A DNA stretch of 34,269 nt from Kiritimatiellia bacterium (lineage in GTDB: Bacteria > Verrucomicrobiota > Kiritimatiellia > RFP12 > UBA1067), in the NCBI GenBank assembly GCA_017962315.1, contig JAGCVN010000053.1, forward strand, positions 1 through 34,269, in the 5' to 3' direction. Within the stretch, counting starts at the first letter, position 1. Every line of letters begins with the position of its first letter. This document shows positions 13,113 through 22,225 of the stretch, one piece after another. The notes beneath the pieces were generated by a model. That model searched no databases. It saw only the letters and a program-made list of their open reading frames with translations, and was not told the DNA's origin. A program made the position numbers and the translations under genes.

Positions 13113-16319
<3,207 letters not shown>

Positions 16320-16654: not shown

Positions 16655-17575
16655 TTAACGGGCGGGATGAACCGACATCCCTTTTTCAAATCCGCTCCCG
16701 GAAACGGGTTCGCAGGTCGCGATTTTCTCTTTGACGGTGGTGACGCGAATCTGCCCCGCCTTCTTCATCTCCTCGTCCAGCACTTCCCCGGTGTCGGGAT
16801 CCGTCAAGACCTCCACCGAACCGACATCGAAAACCTGTCCGACCGCGACGCCTTCGCGCGTGCCGCGGTTGATGATGATCTTGTCCGGCTTGGCGAGGAT
16901 CACGGTTCCCTGCCAGGGAATCGAGCCAAGCTGGGCGATAAGGTATTCGACCGTCTGGTTCACCGCGTCCGCCGTCGCCTTGCCCACGTTGTCCTTCTTG
17001 AACCCGGCAAGGTCGCCGGTCAACCCGCCGAGCGCGTTTCCGACGTATCCGAGACTCAATCCGGTACGCCCGGCTTTCCCGATGATGCTCTTGGAACCCT
17101 TGACCTGACCGGTCTGGGAATCGACCAGGTAAATCGTTACGTTGATCTCCGCCGAATCCGTGCCGCCGCCGAGACGAATACCCCGGAAACCGAGTCCTCC
17201 GCCACCACCGGTGGTGGATTGCTGGACGTGCGTAATCGCCCCTTTCACGAGCAACTGAGCGGGGGTCATGTTACCTTTCTTCGGCGCCTTCTTGCCGCCG
17301 GCCATACGTCCGCTGTCGACCAGATCCTGTTCGCGCATCGCCTCGTTGCGCATATCCGCTTCCCCGAGGACGATGAACCGCCCCGTCTGCTGGAGCGAAT
17401 CGGTCAGAATCTCACCCCACGCATGCCCGAGATCCCACTGCCCAGTCCAGTTCGCCTTGTTCTCAAACTTCGAAACGGTAATCGAATACCGAAGATTCCC
17501 TTGACCGAACGCCGGCGACAAAGCGGCGCAGAGCAGGGAAAAGGACACACAAACCAACATACGACTCGTCTTCAT
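16655..17575 (-). CDS. Secreted CsgG-domain protein
   Basis: A 306-aa protein with a signal peptide (MKTSRMLVCVSFSLLCAALSPAFG) and a CsgG/HfaB-type domain. It shows SITVSKFENKANWTGQWDLG, GEILTDSLQQTGRFIVLGEAD (about 55-75), LLVKGAITHVQQST, and INVTIYLVDSQTGQVKGSKS, which are the typical order and spacing of CsgG relatives. CsgG itself is a nonameric outer-membrane pore for curli export. No lipobox is evident here (cleavage after AFG looks likelier), and no curli genes are near, so it is probably one of the general CsgG-like envelope proteins. A C-terminal segment (IINRGTREGVAVGQVFDVG) resembles the FlgT-type C-terminal module. The start at 17575 has GGAGG 5 nt upstream. Confidence 0.8.
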   Translation of the reverse strand: MKTSRMLVCVSFSLLCAALSPAFGQGNLRYSITVSKFENKANWTGQWDLGHAWGEILTDSLQQTGRFIVLGEADMRNEAMREQDLVDSGRMAGGKKAPKKGNMTPAQLLVKGAITHVQQSTTGGGGGLGFRGIRLGGGTDSAEINVTIYLVDSQTGQVKGSKSIIGKAGRTGLSLGYVGNALGGLTGDLAGFKKDNVGKATADAVNQTVEYLIAQLGSIPWQGTVILAKPDKIIINRGTREGVAVGQVFDVGSVEVLTDPDTGEVLDEEMKKAGQIRVTTVKEKIATCEPVSGSGFEKGMSVHPAR

Positions 17576-17634
17576 GGATTCCTCCTTTTGAACAAACAGG
17601 CGGCAACCAATCCGCCTATCCAATGAACGGGGGG

Positions 17635-18385: not shown

Positions 18386-19846
18386 TCAGGACTGGCCATT
18401 CGCCCGGCCGCCTTGCAAACTCGAACGAATCCGGTCGTAAATTTCACGGTGTTCGTCCAGGACGCTTCGGCAAATCGCCATCGCGCGGCCGAGCGAACCG
18501 TTGCGCGTGCGGTACCAGTGTTTCAGCACGTCGAGATCCGCAATCACGACGGACGGGGACGCCAACGCGGGGTCGAGGTTTCGCGGCATACCGAGGTCGA
18601 TCAACAGCGCCCCTTCCGGATTCATCGGGGAACCGGCCCGCACCACAGGTTCCTTCACATCCACCGCGCTGACGACGAGATCGGCTTCCGGAAGAACGGA
18701 GGGAAGGTCGTCCAGCTGGATCACGCGGACATCCACCGACGCATCAGGACGGTTCCGGTGGTACACCCATGTGCAGACATACCCGCGCGCTTGCAATCCC
18801 TTCAAGACCCCCGTTCCCAGCACCCCCGTGCCGATGACCAGCGCACGGCGGCGACCGTTCAGGATTCTGGCCGCATGGTCGAGAAAATGAAGCGCGACAT
18901 CCTCGATCTCCTGCACGTCCAACAACGCACCGATGGCGTGCCGGATGTCCTTCGAGACGTGGAACGCGGCATCGGCAAGTTCGTGCATGACCGCGCCCGC
19001 CCAGCCTTCGGCCTCTGCTTCCGCCAGCGCGTCCTTGACCTGCGCGACGACGTGGAACTCGCCGGGCGTCTGCGAATCCATCCCCGCCGTGACGGAACAG
19101 AAATGCGCGAACGCCTCATACCCCCGTTTGACGTAATAACCACCGGACGGCAGACGGTCGAAACGGAGAAGCCGGCGCAAGAGTGCGTCCGCACCTTCTT
19201 CTTGCGAGACGGCGGCGATCAGTTCGATGCGGTTGCACGTGTTGAGCAAGATGAACTCCTGGACACCCCATACCTTGCGGATCATCTCCCCTACCCGCTT
19301 CCGTTCTTCCGGCGGCAGTTGGAATGGCTGGCGCTCCTCGGCGGAAAGACACTCGTGGCTGGTCCCCATGATCACAAGGTCTGTCGCAGAAACCGCCTCG
19401 ATGTGGCGGCGCAGATTGTCCTTCACGAACCGGGCGAGACGGCAGGACTTTCCGCCGGTGGAGACCGCCAGGGTGAGGTCGTCGGAACGGATAATCGCAG
19501 GGGTGACGAAATCGCCGTCCGGCCAGTTTCCGTCGGCGCAACAGCATAGGACCTTCGCTTCGCGCGCCGCCTGAAGGATTCCGTGATTCACCTTCCGGTC
19601 GTCTGAACAGGCGAAACAGAGGGCGGCCCCCTCCAGGTCGGACGGCTGGAACGGAGCGGTGCGCAGCAAGACACGGCCTTGCCGCGCAAGCGAGGCAAGT
19701 TCTTCCGTGACGACCGGGGCCACGACCAAAATCTCCGCGCCGGAATCCAGCAGGAGTTCGACCTTCCGCTGTCCGACTTTCCCGCCCCCGGCGACCAAGA
19801 CGCGCCGTCCCTCCAACAGGACGTTGATCGGGAACGTCCTTTTCAT
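18386..19846 (-). CDS. hemA: Fused precorrin-2 dehydrogenase (SirC-like)/glutamyl-tRNA reductase (HemA)
   Basis: A 486-aa fusion of two tetrapyrrole enzymes. Residues 1 to about 150 form a SirC/Met8-like NAD-dependent precorrin-2 dehydrogenase (GRRVLVAGGGKVGQRK at 13-28; FVTPAIIRSDDLTLAVSTGG). From about 155 follows glutamyl-tRNA reductase, the first step of C5-pathway haem synthesis: VIMGTSHECLSAEER, the catalytic NTCNRIEL (Cys204), AGMDSQTPGEFHVVAQVK and an NADPH site RRALVIGTGVLGTGVL (about 333-348). The reductase part is about 330 residues against roughly 420 usually; it stops about 40-50 residues after IADLDVL, so most of the C-terminal dimerisation domain is missing. The start at 19846 has GGA 6 nt upstream; an in-frame ATG at 19864, 2 nt after the fmdB stop, is the alternative. 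Confidence 0.9.
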   Translation of the reverse strand: MKRTFPINVLLEGRRVLVAGGGKVGQRKVELLLDSGAEILVVAPVVTEELASLARQGRVLLRTAPFQPSDLEGAALCFACSDDRKVNHGILQAAREAKVLCCCADGNWPDGDFVTPAIIRSDDLTLAVSTGGKSCRLARFVKDNLRRHIEAVSATDLVIMGTSHECLSAEERQPFQLPPEERKRVGEMIRKVWGVQEFILLNTCNRIELIAAVSQEEGADALLRRLLRFDRLPSGGYYVKRGYEAFAHFCSVTAGMDSQTPGEFHVVAQVKDALAEAEAEGWAGAVMHELADAAFHVSKDIRHAIGALLDVQEIEDVALHFLDHAARILNGRRRALVIGTGVLGTGVLKGLQARGYVCTWVYHRNRPDASVDVRVIQLDDLPSVLPEADLVVSAVDVKEPVVRAGSPMNPEGALLIDLGMPRNLDPALASPSVVIADLDVLKHWYRTRNGSLGRAMAICRSVLDEHREIYDRIRSSLQGGRANGQS

Positions 19847-19866
19847 CAGATTTCCGCTCTTCATAC

Positions 19867-20103
19867 TCAACCGTGATGGCAACACCCGCAGCCGCAACCG
19901 CAACCATGTCCCCCGCCCCCTTCCGATGACGGACAGGAACGACAAGCGGCCGGCGTCGCGGAGGTCTGGGAGAAGGTCGAAAGCTGCTTCTCCACACGGG
20001 ACGAGCCACACGCAGGACACCCCGGCGCGGGCGCGGAATACGATTTCGCGAGGTGGTCAAACGTCTTGCCGCACGCGGCACAGACATATTCATAGATCGG
20101 CAT
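19867..20103 (-). CDS. FmdB-type zinc-ribbon protein
   Basis: A 78-aa FmdB/regulatory-family zinc ribbon starting MPIYEYVCAACGKTFDHLAK, with ligands C8, C11, C29 and C32. The family is found in most bacteria, and its function is not established. The C-terminal 15 residues are unusual: GGGGHGCGCGCGCCHHG packs Cys and His at high density, suggesting extra metal binding. The start at 20103 has GGGAGGG upstream. It sits 23 bp after yidC and 2 nt from a possible start of the hemA fusion, so it is co-transcribed. Confidence 0.85.
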   Translation of the reverse strand: MPIYEYVCAACGKTFDHLAKSYSAPAPGCPACGSSRVEKQLSTFSQTSATPAACRSCPSSEGGGGHGCGCGCGCCHHG

Positions 20104-20126
20104 CGGAAGTCCCTCCCCTCGCATTC

Positions 20127-21953
20127 TCACGCATGGCGGCGCTGCTGCCGCGTCAACGGCGGCGCGTCCTGCGCCGTTCCGGTTCCGCTACCGCCCTTGT
20201 TTCCCTTGCGGTGGATCATCCACATCTGGACGATTGCCAGAATCTGGCTCACCGTCCAGTAAAGCGAGAGCGCGGCGGGGAACGAGTAGAACATGAACAG
20301 CATCATCAGCGGCATCATGACCATCATCATGCGCTGCTGGCGGGGATCGCCCGCAGAAGGCGTGAGGTAACTCTGCAACGCCATCGTCACCGCCATCAGG
20401 ATCGGCAGGATGTTCAACGGGATCGGCAGGACTTTCGCAAAGAGGTTTTCCGGCTCGCTGAGGTCGGCGATCCACAGGAACGGCGCGTAGCGGAGTTCCA
20501 CCGAGTTGCGCAACACGTAGAACAGCGCGATGAACACGGGAATCTGGATCAGCATCGGCAGACAGCTGGAGAGCGGGTTCACCTTGTGTTCGCGGTAAAC
20601 GGCGAAGGTCTCCTGCTGGAGCTTCTGCGGGTTGTCCTTGAACTTCTTCTGGAGTTCCTTGATGATCGGCTGGATCTCCTGCATCTTCTTCATTCCCTCC
20701 GTGCTCTTGTGCGTGAGCGGCCAGAAGATCAGGCGGACCAGGAACGTCAAGAGGATGATCGCAATGCCGTAGTTGGGAATGACGCGGTAGAAGCCGTTCA
20801 ACGTGGGCACAAGCAGCTTGCAGAACCAGGACCACATGCCGAAGTCCATCACGTCGTCGAGCTTGTTCCCGAAGGCCTGCAACAGCGAAAGCTTTTTCGG
20901 TCCGATGAAGAATGTGTAGTCTCGTTCAAACGACTCGCCTTGGTTCAACCCCTTTTCCGGGAACCGCATCCGGGCGGAAAGCTCCTTCAGGAAATAGTTC
21001 GGGCGGGCGGTGTCGCGCGCGGCGGTGAACTGAAACCCGGCGTTCGGAACCGTCGAGGCGAGCGCCGTCAGGAAGAACCGGCTCTTCAGCGCGATCCACC
21101 GCTGGGGCTCTTCAACCGGAACCGTAGTGGATTCCGGCATCCCGACCGCGGACGAGGAGCCGCCGCATCCGAACCCGCTGGCGGAACCGCCAACGAGGAA
21201 ACGGCCGACCTGCTTGTCGCTCCCCCAGAACTTGACCTTCGGCTTTTCCGCGACCGGCAGGGTGTCCACCGAGAGCAGATCCTGTGCGGACTCGCCGCGC
21301 GAGAGCGCGCCGAGGCTGACGCTGTTCGAAGAAAGCGAAAGGGGGCCGGCCGATGTGTTCGTAAACACGTCTTTCACCGCGAGGCGGTGGCCGGGGAGAA
21401 GTTCAAACCGGCGCGTAACCTGCAACCCGGAAGCGGACGTGGCGGTGAACAAGACCACGTTGGTGCCTTCCCGTTTGACGTAATAGGAGGCGTTCGCCGC
21501 GATTCCCGGAAGTCCGTACAGGCGGAGGAAGGGTTCATCCGTCGAGCCAAGGGTGACGGGGGGATTCTCCTCCGAGATCTTCCCCGGTTTCCCGGCATAG
21601 CGCTTCAGCGTCGCAGACCGGAGGGTGCCGCCCCAGGATGAGAACGAAAGTGTGACATCCTCGTCGGAAAGTTCGACGCACTCCTCAGGGCGTTCCGGCT
21701 TCGCCAAGGCGGGGGCGGAGTCGGCCGCCGGAGCGTTGGTCGCGGTCGCAGGGGCCGCAGACGCAGGCGCGGCACTCAACGTGGTATCGACAGGGAGGAT
21801 GGCGGGGGCATTGGTCGCCGCAGCCGCCTGGGCCTCCTGCATCGCCTTCTGGCGCACGATGCGGTTTCGCTTATCGACCTGGAAGGAATAAAAAATCCAG
21901 CCGACAAGGCAGAAGCCCAGAAAAAGGGCAAGAAGCTTTTCTTTCGTGTTCAT
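20127..21953 (-). CDS. yidC: Membrane protein insertase YidC
   Basis: A 608-aa Oxa1/YidC insertase that places membrane proteins with or without SecYEG. It has an N-terminal membrane anchor ([18 protein letters not shown], about 7-24), an Ala/Pro-rich linker, a Gram-negative-type periplasmic domain (about 85-360) and the C-terminal insertase core (from [13 protein letters not shown]). The core carries the hydrophilic-groove Arg in [16 protein letters not shown], the cytoplasmic hairpin ([19 protein letters not shown]) and a Met-rich segment [18 protein letters not shown]. The tail ends in basic RQQRRHA. The start at 21953 overlaps the yidD stop (ATGA). Confidence 0.97.
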
Positions 21954-22225
21954 CGTTTCTCGTTTTCTTCGTTTTTCGTTCTTTTCGGGGGCACGGGGTC
22001 GTAACCGGAAGGACCGAACGGACGGCAGCGCATCAAACGTTTGAAGGTCAACCAGCACCCCTTGAAAACACCGTGGACGCGCAACGCCTCGATGCAGTAG
22101 TTGGAACAGGACGGGGTAAAGCGGCAACAATTTCCGAGATGGGGGGAAAGCGTGACCTGATAGGCCCGCACCAGCGACACCAGGACGGAAACACCCAAGC
22201 GGGAGAGCGCCTCAACGATGGACAT
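21950..22225 (-). CDS. yidD: Membrane protein insertion efficiency factor YidD
   Basis: A 91-aa YidD protein, a small factor assisting insertion alongside YidC. The family core is clear: [35 protein letters not shown] (three characteristic cysteines), then [24 protein letters not shown]. The ATG at 22225 gives the usual short N-terminus, and the frame overlaps the end of rnpA by 14 bp and the start of yidC by 4 bp. An ATG at 22243 is a possible longer start. Confidence 0.95.

Follow-up and report, generated by a model that had tools for sequence, protein, structure and literature searches.

A SirC-HemA fusion gene in Kiritimatiellia with predicted glutamyl-tRNA reductase and precorrin-2 dehydrogenase functions in one chain

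Analysis of a 34,269-nucleotide stretch of DNA from a Kiritimatiellia bacterium (assembly GCA_017962315.1, contig JAGCVN010000053.1; here called the window) revealed a gene in which a SirC module and a glutamyl-tRNA reductase (GluTR, HemA) are encoded as a single chain of 486 aa with zero internal stops. Judged from the sequence, the product is probably a bifunctional tetrapyrrole enzyme with GluTR and precorrin-2 dehydrogenase in one chain. The C-terminal half would be the glutamyl-tRNA reductase of the cell and yield glutamate semialdehyde for HemL, the N-terminal half would act as precorrin-2 dehydrogenase and yield sirohydrochlorin, and the fusion would join the first and the last steps of the route from Glu-tRNA to sirohydrochlorin, with both halves presumably active in vivo. 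Directly observed were the architecture, the catalytic residues, the single branch formed by the fused proteins, the purifying selection, the neighbourhood in relatives and the co-occurrence with HemL. The fusion is a new arrangement of known enzymes and not a new kind of system. The coordinates of the gene, its parts and its neighbours are given in Table 1.

Table 1. Position of the sirC-hemA fusion gene, its domains and residues, and the genes upstream of it in the window
Feature	Position in window	Strand	Remarks
sirC-hemA fusion gene	18386..19846	(-)	486 aa; 492 aa if the start is the in-frame ATG at 19864
SirC module, residues 1-150: NAD-binding Rossmann domain and alpha/beta dimerisation element, without all-helical domain	19397..19846	(-)	Pfam; alignment to CysG 5-148
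Asp105, equivalent of CysG Asp104	19532..19534	(-)	alignment to 1pjq; invariant in 27-sequence alignment
Cys135, at the place of CysG Pro133 (tetrapyrrole platform)	19442..19444	(-)	alignment; invariant in 27-sequence alignment
GluTR catalytic domain, residues 155-310	18917..19384	(-)	GlutR_N; 1gpj alignment
Cys204, catalytic cysteine of the TCNR motif	19235..19237	(-)	aligned with Cys of Arabidopsis GluTR
GluTR NADPH-binding domain, residues 330-445, altered loop WVYHRNRP	18512..18859	(-)	Shikimate_DH
C-terminal helices, residues 451-477, base of the spinal helix; the dimerisation domain expected next is absent	18416..18496	(-)	model; 1gpj alignment ends at 334
Zinc-ribbon gene upstream, possibly co-transcribed	19867..20130	(-)	PF09723
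yidC-like gene further upstream	20127..22130	(-)	named by eye from translation

The single-chain fusion of SirC and HemA suggested in the preliminary description was borne out by the open frame, by the Pfam domains and by its recurrence: of 387 genomes sampled across the phylum Verrucomicrobiota, 67 have it in one place at near-full length. This count from the listed rows leaves out G213, where a contig edge interrupts the copy, and G139, G162 and G276, which carry remnants. The Pfam families matched were NAD_binding_7 (PF13241; residues 9-117, 1.4e-27), Sirohm_synth_M (PF14824; residues 123-148, 6.9e-7), GlutR_N (PF05201; residues 161-303, 9.4e-27) and Shikimate_DH (PF01488; residues 332-442, 8.4e-15). 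Neither GlutR_dimer (PF00745) at E<=1 nor the SUMT (TP_methylase) module of trifunctional CysG was found in the 486-aa chain. The protein passes TIGR01470 with 100.7 bits (cut-off 62.3) and remains with 121.8 bits under the cut-off of 209.55 of the hemA equivalog TIGR01035. Of a GluTR it has the TCNR catalytic domain and the NADPH Rossmann domain and lacks the canonical long-form dimerisation domain; of a precorrin-2 dehydrogenase it has the NAD-binding and central dimerisation parts and the catalytic Asp and lacks the long-form all-helical domain. The in-frame ATG upstream of the frame lies 2 nt past the stop of the zinc-ribbon gene and may be the real start. Long open frames at 13128-15782 (+), 16667-17626 (+) and 19659-21641 (+) oppose likely genes and were not counted as genes.

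For comparison, 168 distinct GluTRs were kept, comprising 80 fused (the window protein included), 51 unfused short and 37 long proteins; fragments, duplicates, contig-cut frames and rows without TC[NDS]R (e.g. L049, L037, L180, L207 and L208) were left out. The residues T203, C204, R206, G262, E263, Q269, D417 and P421 are kept in all 80 fused proteins, the conservation of T203 and C204 stemming partly from this choice of rows. The catalytic Cys is present in 80/80 fused, 51/51 short and 37/37 long GluTRs and is independently invariant in the alignment of 27 fused sequences. In the SirC half, Asp105 is likewise invariant (27/27), and the corresponding CysG variant D104A is inactive (PMC7018833). 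As read by regular expression, Cys occupies the position of residue 135 in 76 of 79 fused SirCs (the others having G, G and V), in three of three remnants and in all nine SirC rows filed as alone; of these nine, L117 is in truth a fusion interrupted at the edge of its contig, and the SirC of L076 continues into HemC. Pro is found there in the SirCs of Omnitrophota (L148) and Enterococcus (L124), and in CysG it is Pro133 that serves as platform for the tetrapyrrole (PMC7018833).

The Arg of the NADP-phosphate loop (NR[ST]) was found in 37/37 long and 49/51 short GluTRs and in only 23/80 fused ones, with the window protein among those that retain it. Since this motif, which we take to bind the 2'-phosphate of NADP, lacks its Arg in most fused proteins, their cofactor use may differ. 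Signatures of the fused group are Y362 (75/80), H363 (66/80) and P367 (73/80). The dN/dS values were 0.00-0.22 for the SirC half (14 of 15 pairs computable) and 0.04-0.21 for the GluTR half (13 of 15 pairs, the remnant pair included), both rough because many dS exceed 1; the pairs left over were saturated, including that of the window protein with L079 in the GluTR half. Both halves are under purifying selection.

An AlphaFold2 monomer model was built from 27 fused sequences and reached a mean pLDDT of 86.6 and a pTM of 0.67. Residues 6-150 of the model align to CysG 5-148 over 144 residues with an rmsd of 1.4 (CysG rows 1.3-1.6). Residues 156-486 align to residues 3-334 of the Methanopyrus kandleri GluTR 1gpj (chain length 404) over 319 residues with an rmsd of 11.7, so that the fit holds domain by domain and not as a single rigid body. 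The fold of the NADPH-binding domain matches 3oj0 and 1gpj; families left unlisted in the VIA-align rows are not thereby excluded.

That most of the GluTR dimerisation domain is missing, as had been described, was confirmed in that PF00745 found no match and the 1gpj alignment stops at residue 334 of 404, which leaves about the last 70 residues of a GluTR absent and the base of the spinal helix retained. The domain is absent from the relatives as well: in the 27-sequence alignment (window protein included), NAD_binding_7, GlutR_N and Shikimate_DH were matched in 27/27, and the 23 families that scored E<=0.01 do not include GlutR_dimer. The frame continues past the catalytic Cys for 239-317 aa in 79 of the 80 distinct fused proteins, 343-404 aa in the 37 long GluTRs and 279-319 aa in 51 of the 88 unfused GluTRs gathered, mostly from the same phylum. 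The loss of a longer C-terminus by frameshift can thus be set aside, as 79/80 fused proteins end at about one place. The exception is L085, whose fused frame reaches 554 aa beyond the catalytic Cys, perhaps into the downstream gene.

Nor did a second hemA come to light in the own genome, in which the sole match of GlutR_N is the fusion gene and PF00745 was not found by profile search; this genome is 84.6% complete, so that absences from it are soft. When 12 other genomes of the own family were searched with GlutR_N, exactly one match was obtained in ten, and none in G389 (66% complete) and G171. Across the phylum sample, PF00745 was found in 26/387 genomes and missing in 361, some of which have no GluTR at all, and among 14 control genomes Thermus composti has GlutR_N and not GlutR_dimer. 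GlutR_N and Shikimate_DH were matched in 51/51 of the short unfused GluTRs and GlutR_dimer at E<=0.01 in none, for which reason GlutR_dimer is not treated here as defining the GluTR family. A BLAST search with three SirC modules against the frames of these short GluTRs placed SirC in front of none of the 51, all matches being to their own NADPH domains behind the catalytic Cys. The ratio of 51 short to 37 long proteins is not a frequency, as many of the loci were hand-picked and the long ones came partly from the GlutR_dimer search.

A match to the fusion protein was obtained in 221 of the 387 phylum genomes. The scan of named genomes added fused loci from records that bear the names Kiritimatiellae, Lentisphaerae (the complete chromosome CP071032 among them) and others. 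MAG titles are unreliable; fused loci come also under the names Akkermansia muciniphila (L084), Victivallis vadensis (L097) and Spirochaeta (L101). The fused GluTRs form one side of a single branch in the tree of the 168 sequences (SH-aLRT 99), and the same branch was supported with 100/100 in a careful tree of 74 sequences (25 fused, 26 short and 23 long). Read without a root, the trees put the fused GluTRs on one branch, most simply of one origin; by sequence, a single origin of the SirC-GluTR fusion is probable. The short unfused GluTRs are not one clade on either tree (at least five changes, the starred branches alone forcing only one), and a clade of fused and short proteins, as loss of the dimer domain ahead of the fusion would give, was not rejected by the AU test (p-AU 0.222). 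Two MAGs titled Spirochaetes carry fusions (L101 and L120) inside the fused group on the 168-sequence tree, as transfer or misnaming may give.

Several further loci were noted. Two full fusions per genome occur in G118 and G297. Part of the NADPH domain is missing from the fusions L061 and L062 (G029 and G032), and a stretch of the catalytic domain from L059, L060, L063 and L168 in order-level relatives (f2), for L168 by length only; the genomes of these shortened fusions (L059-L063 and L168) have HemL and one fusion match each. Candidate fusions in Enterococcus (L124) and in a plasmid record of Peptoclostridium were rejected as separate adjacent genes, the latter by annotation. An internal TAG in L014, L018, L031 and L077 was likewise dismissed, since the open frame reaches about the end of the match and the TAG is most likely the stop of the gene itself.

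The fusion and HemL co-occur. HemL was matched at E<=1e-60 in 66 of the 67 full-fusion genomes, own genome included, G306 being without; weak matches were those of G197 (2.5e-80) and G293 (8.8e-93). In the own family (f1), eight of nine sampled genomes without a full fusion are also without HemL, the exception being G203, which has a weak fusion match. Genus g4 of this family (G171, G183, G239, G253, G329, G335 and G377) showed neither a fusion match nor HemL, and the route seems to have been lost in most of the genus (7/8 sampled; G203 differs). Besides the fusion, a further GluTR is present in 4/67 full-fusion genomes (G087, G159, G209 and G216) and a GlutR_dimer protein in 2/67. HemE was matched in 12/67 (one, in G065, below the cut-off), and the fusion thus also occurs outside a sirohaem-only layout.

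In four relatives (L092, L106, L113 and L118) the gene order is fusion, HemC-CobA-HemD, HemB and HemL. Pfam confirmed the four proteins for L092, HemL only as a class-III aminotransferase, and HemC-CobA-HemD for L113; in both loci the TP_methylase module sits in the HemC-CobA-HemD protein. In some relatives the fusion adjoins cobalamin genes (e.g. L113, CbiK by Pfam), a sulfite-reductase-like gene (L118 and L106, by eye from translations) or a siroheme decarboxylase (L014 and L123, by eye), the last also adjoining the remnant L207 (by Pfam). All three sinks draw on sirohydrochlorin. Locus L207 (3015-4787, G276) also encodes two PF17805 domains and a CbiK chelatase in one 591-aa chain. The own genome contains HemL, HemC in a 752-aa frame on a contig other than that of the fusion gene, and two PF17805 (siroheme-decarboxylase-type) domains in one 350-aa frame. 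HemE (classical UroD), CbiD, NIR_SIR and CbiK, the last being the sole iron chelatase family searched, were not found in this 84.6% complete genome. Because HemE was not found and a siroheme decarboxylase of the AhbA-AhbB type was, the gene content points to haem synthesis by the sirohaem-dependent route, and the product of the fusion most likely goes to haem in this way.

Why the two enzymes are joined, and how the chain is held together, allows several explanations besides plain bifunctionality. That two genes were joined by an annotation or assembly error is virtually out of the question: no supporting point was found, and against it stand the 67 genomes, the 80 distinct sequences in one frame and the separate assemblies, a complete chromosome among them. 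It had also been suggested that SirC, itself a dimer in CysG/Met8, takes over the role of the lost GluTR domain, a SirC-held dimer having let the C-terminus go. In CysG the N-terminal module has three parts, namely a Rossmann fold, an alpha/beta dimerisation domain and an all-helical domain, and it dimerises by domain swapping (PMC7018833); the SirC part of the fusion does carry the dimerisation element, as its two strands and helix lie within the portion aligned to CysG 5-148. The opposite view, that SirC had lost its dimerisation part since the later Pfam domain of CysG is missing, was discarded because the alpha/beta dimerisation domain of CysG is the retained part (PMC7018833). In the monomer model, pLDDT drops to block means of 63-70 over residues 101-140, which would suit a swapped element, and SirC helix 135-153 passes straight into GluTR strand 155-162 without a linker. 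Low pLDDT may have other causes, however, and the corresponding region (residues 111-150) of the truncated relative L214 scores 81-87. The causal part of the proposal is weakened by the 51 unfused short GluTRs, which lack GlutR_dimer with no SirC in front, so that absence of the domain needs no SirC; the want of PF00745 in most of the phylum sample, though some genomes have no GluTR, argues in the same direction. As the reason for the loss, replacement by SirC did not hold, and the reading as a whole is possible but doubtful. A dimer of the fusion borne by SirC is plausible and would form through the alpha/beta element; the fusion lacks the all-helical domain, which in CysG helps to shape the domain-swapped cavity, and a dimer of the CysG kind therefore cannot be taken for granted.

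The GluTR catalytic body might pack where CysG has its helical domain, and it may have become a structural half of SirC that closes the precorrin-2 cavity in place of that domain. This is suggested by three remnants, L214 (G162) and L207/L208 (G276 and G139), which are without the NADPH domain but still have SirC and the GluTR catalytic body and finish with the terminal helix of the full fusion; L207/L208 are also without the TCNR motif, and L214 keeps the Cys. In the L214 model the body and the helix lie relative to each other as they do in 1gpj 2-329 (rmsd 2.9 over 164 residues), and the L207/L208 remnant is under purifying selection with a dN/dS of 0.214 over 155 codons, against 0.085 for SirC, in the one pair testable. 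A separate GluTR exists in G162 (L073) and G139 (L046), and G276 shows only the GlutR_dimer part of one at a contig edge (L047). On the SirC tree, which has 155 columns and a weak backbone and of which only starred groups were used, L214 and L076 join the full fusion L114 with 100/99 support and L200 next with 98/90, which makes descent from the fusion their simplest origin. Against a structural role speak short SirCs without a GluTR body in the same class (L215 and L217, frames of <=166 aa), SirC matches in L218, L219, L220 and L223 that end at about the same point with no GluTR match adjoining, the Cys of L214, with which some GluTR-related activity might remain, and the single pair behind the selection test; we regard this explanation as rather unlikely. 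Erosion of the GluTR half does happen, as the same remnants and a SirC-HemC-CobA-HemD protein of G098 indicate, and the GluTR half of the window protein could be a dying domain, with ALA coming from elsewhere. In the window lineage, however, no catalytic residue has been lost, the close pairs tested give low dN/dS (the GluTR dS of the window protein against L079 being saturated) and HemL is present with no other GluTR found, which makes decay highly improbable. In G098 the quadruple fusion occurs at L163 (967-3615) and L076 (4098-6779), with neither a GlutR_N nor a HemL match in the genome; here an old fusion seems to have shed its GluTR part, with SirC becoming joined to the next gene. A redox or substrate channel linking the two halves was set aside, because the product of GluTR goes to HemL and eight GluTR turnovers are required per SirC turnover. 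Channelling and redox balancing therefore do not explain the fusion, and sensing would: precorrin-2 or an end product bound at the SirC cavity, itself partly built from the GluTR body, could set the activity of the entry enzyme. The clade-specific platform Cys and the rewritten NADP loop, with possible use of NADH, the coenzyme released by SirC, would then be part of the adaptation. Such a feedback device is an unlikely refinement of the bifunctional enzyme that we prefer.

Tetrapyrrole synthesis is entered through GluTR, a step under tight control, and as a dimer this enzyme takes on a V shape thought to receive HemL (PMC6399207). A clade that apparently works without the GluTR dimer domain and the helical domain of SirC raises the question of what these domains are for. 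The joining of first and last steps is a natural test of end-product control where haem may come only through sirohaem, and the remnants amount to a deletion series made by evolution.

In the literature outside subscription journals, covered through portions of PMC7018833, PMC11237513, PMC10564238, PMC4726326, PMC6399207, PMC6378601, PMC3004389 and PMC4870792, a SirC-HemA fusion was not found, database annotations aside. Archaea have HemA-HemB and HemC-CobA-HemD fusions, which like SirC-HemA join early haem-pathway enzymes; SirC-HemA is not mentioned in the accessible part of that source (PMC11237513). The siroheme operon of Ruminococcus bromii contains hemA, a MET8-like cysG, hemC, cobA-hemD, hemB and hemL as separate genes (PMC6378601) and covers the same steps in one cluster with six genes, where L092, L106, L113 and L118 have four, two of them multi-domain fusions. 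Compared with the N-terminal module of CysG, SirC and Met8, the fusion shares the Rossmann and alpha/beta dimerisation parts and Asp105; it differs from CysG in lacking the all-helical domain and in having Cys135 for Pro133. The short GluTRs, mostly of Verrucomicrobiota, resemble it in their end point and in the absence of GlutR_dimer (51/51), and differ in having no SirC and in lying outside the fused group on both trees. Short GluTRs without GlutR_dimer also occur in Chlamydiae, and the NCBIfam model NF001909 is 338 positions long. With HemA of M. kandleri (1gpj) and Arabidopsis (4n7r) the fusion has in common the catalytic and NADPH domains, their order and the TCNR cysteine; it stands apart by the missing dimer domain, the SirC module in front, the replacement of the NADP-phosphate loop NR[ST]xxRA by WxYHxNxP in most fused members and His in place of Q/E at residue 265 (75/80).
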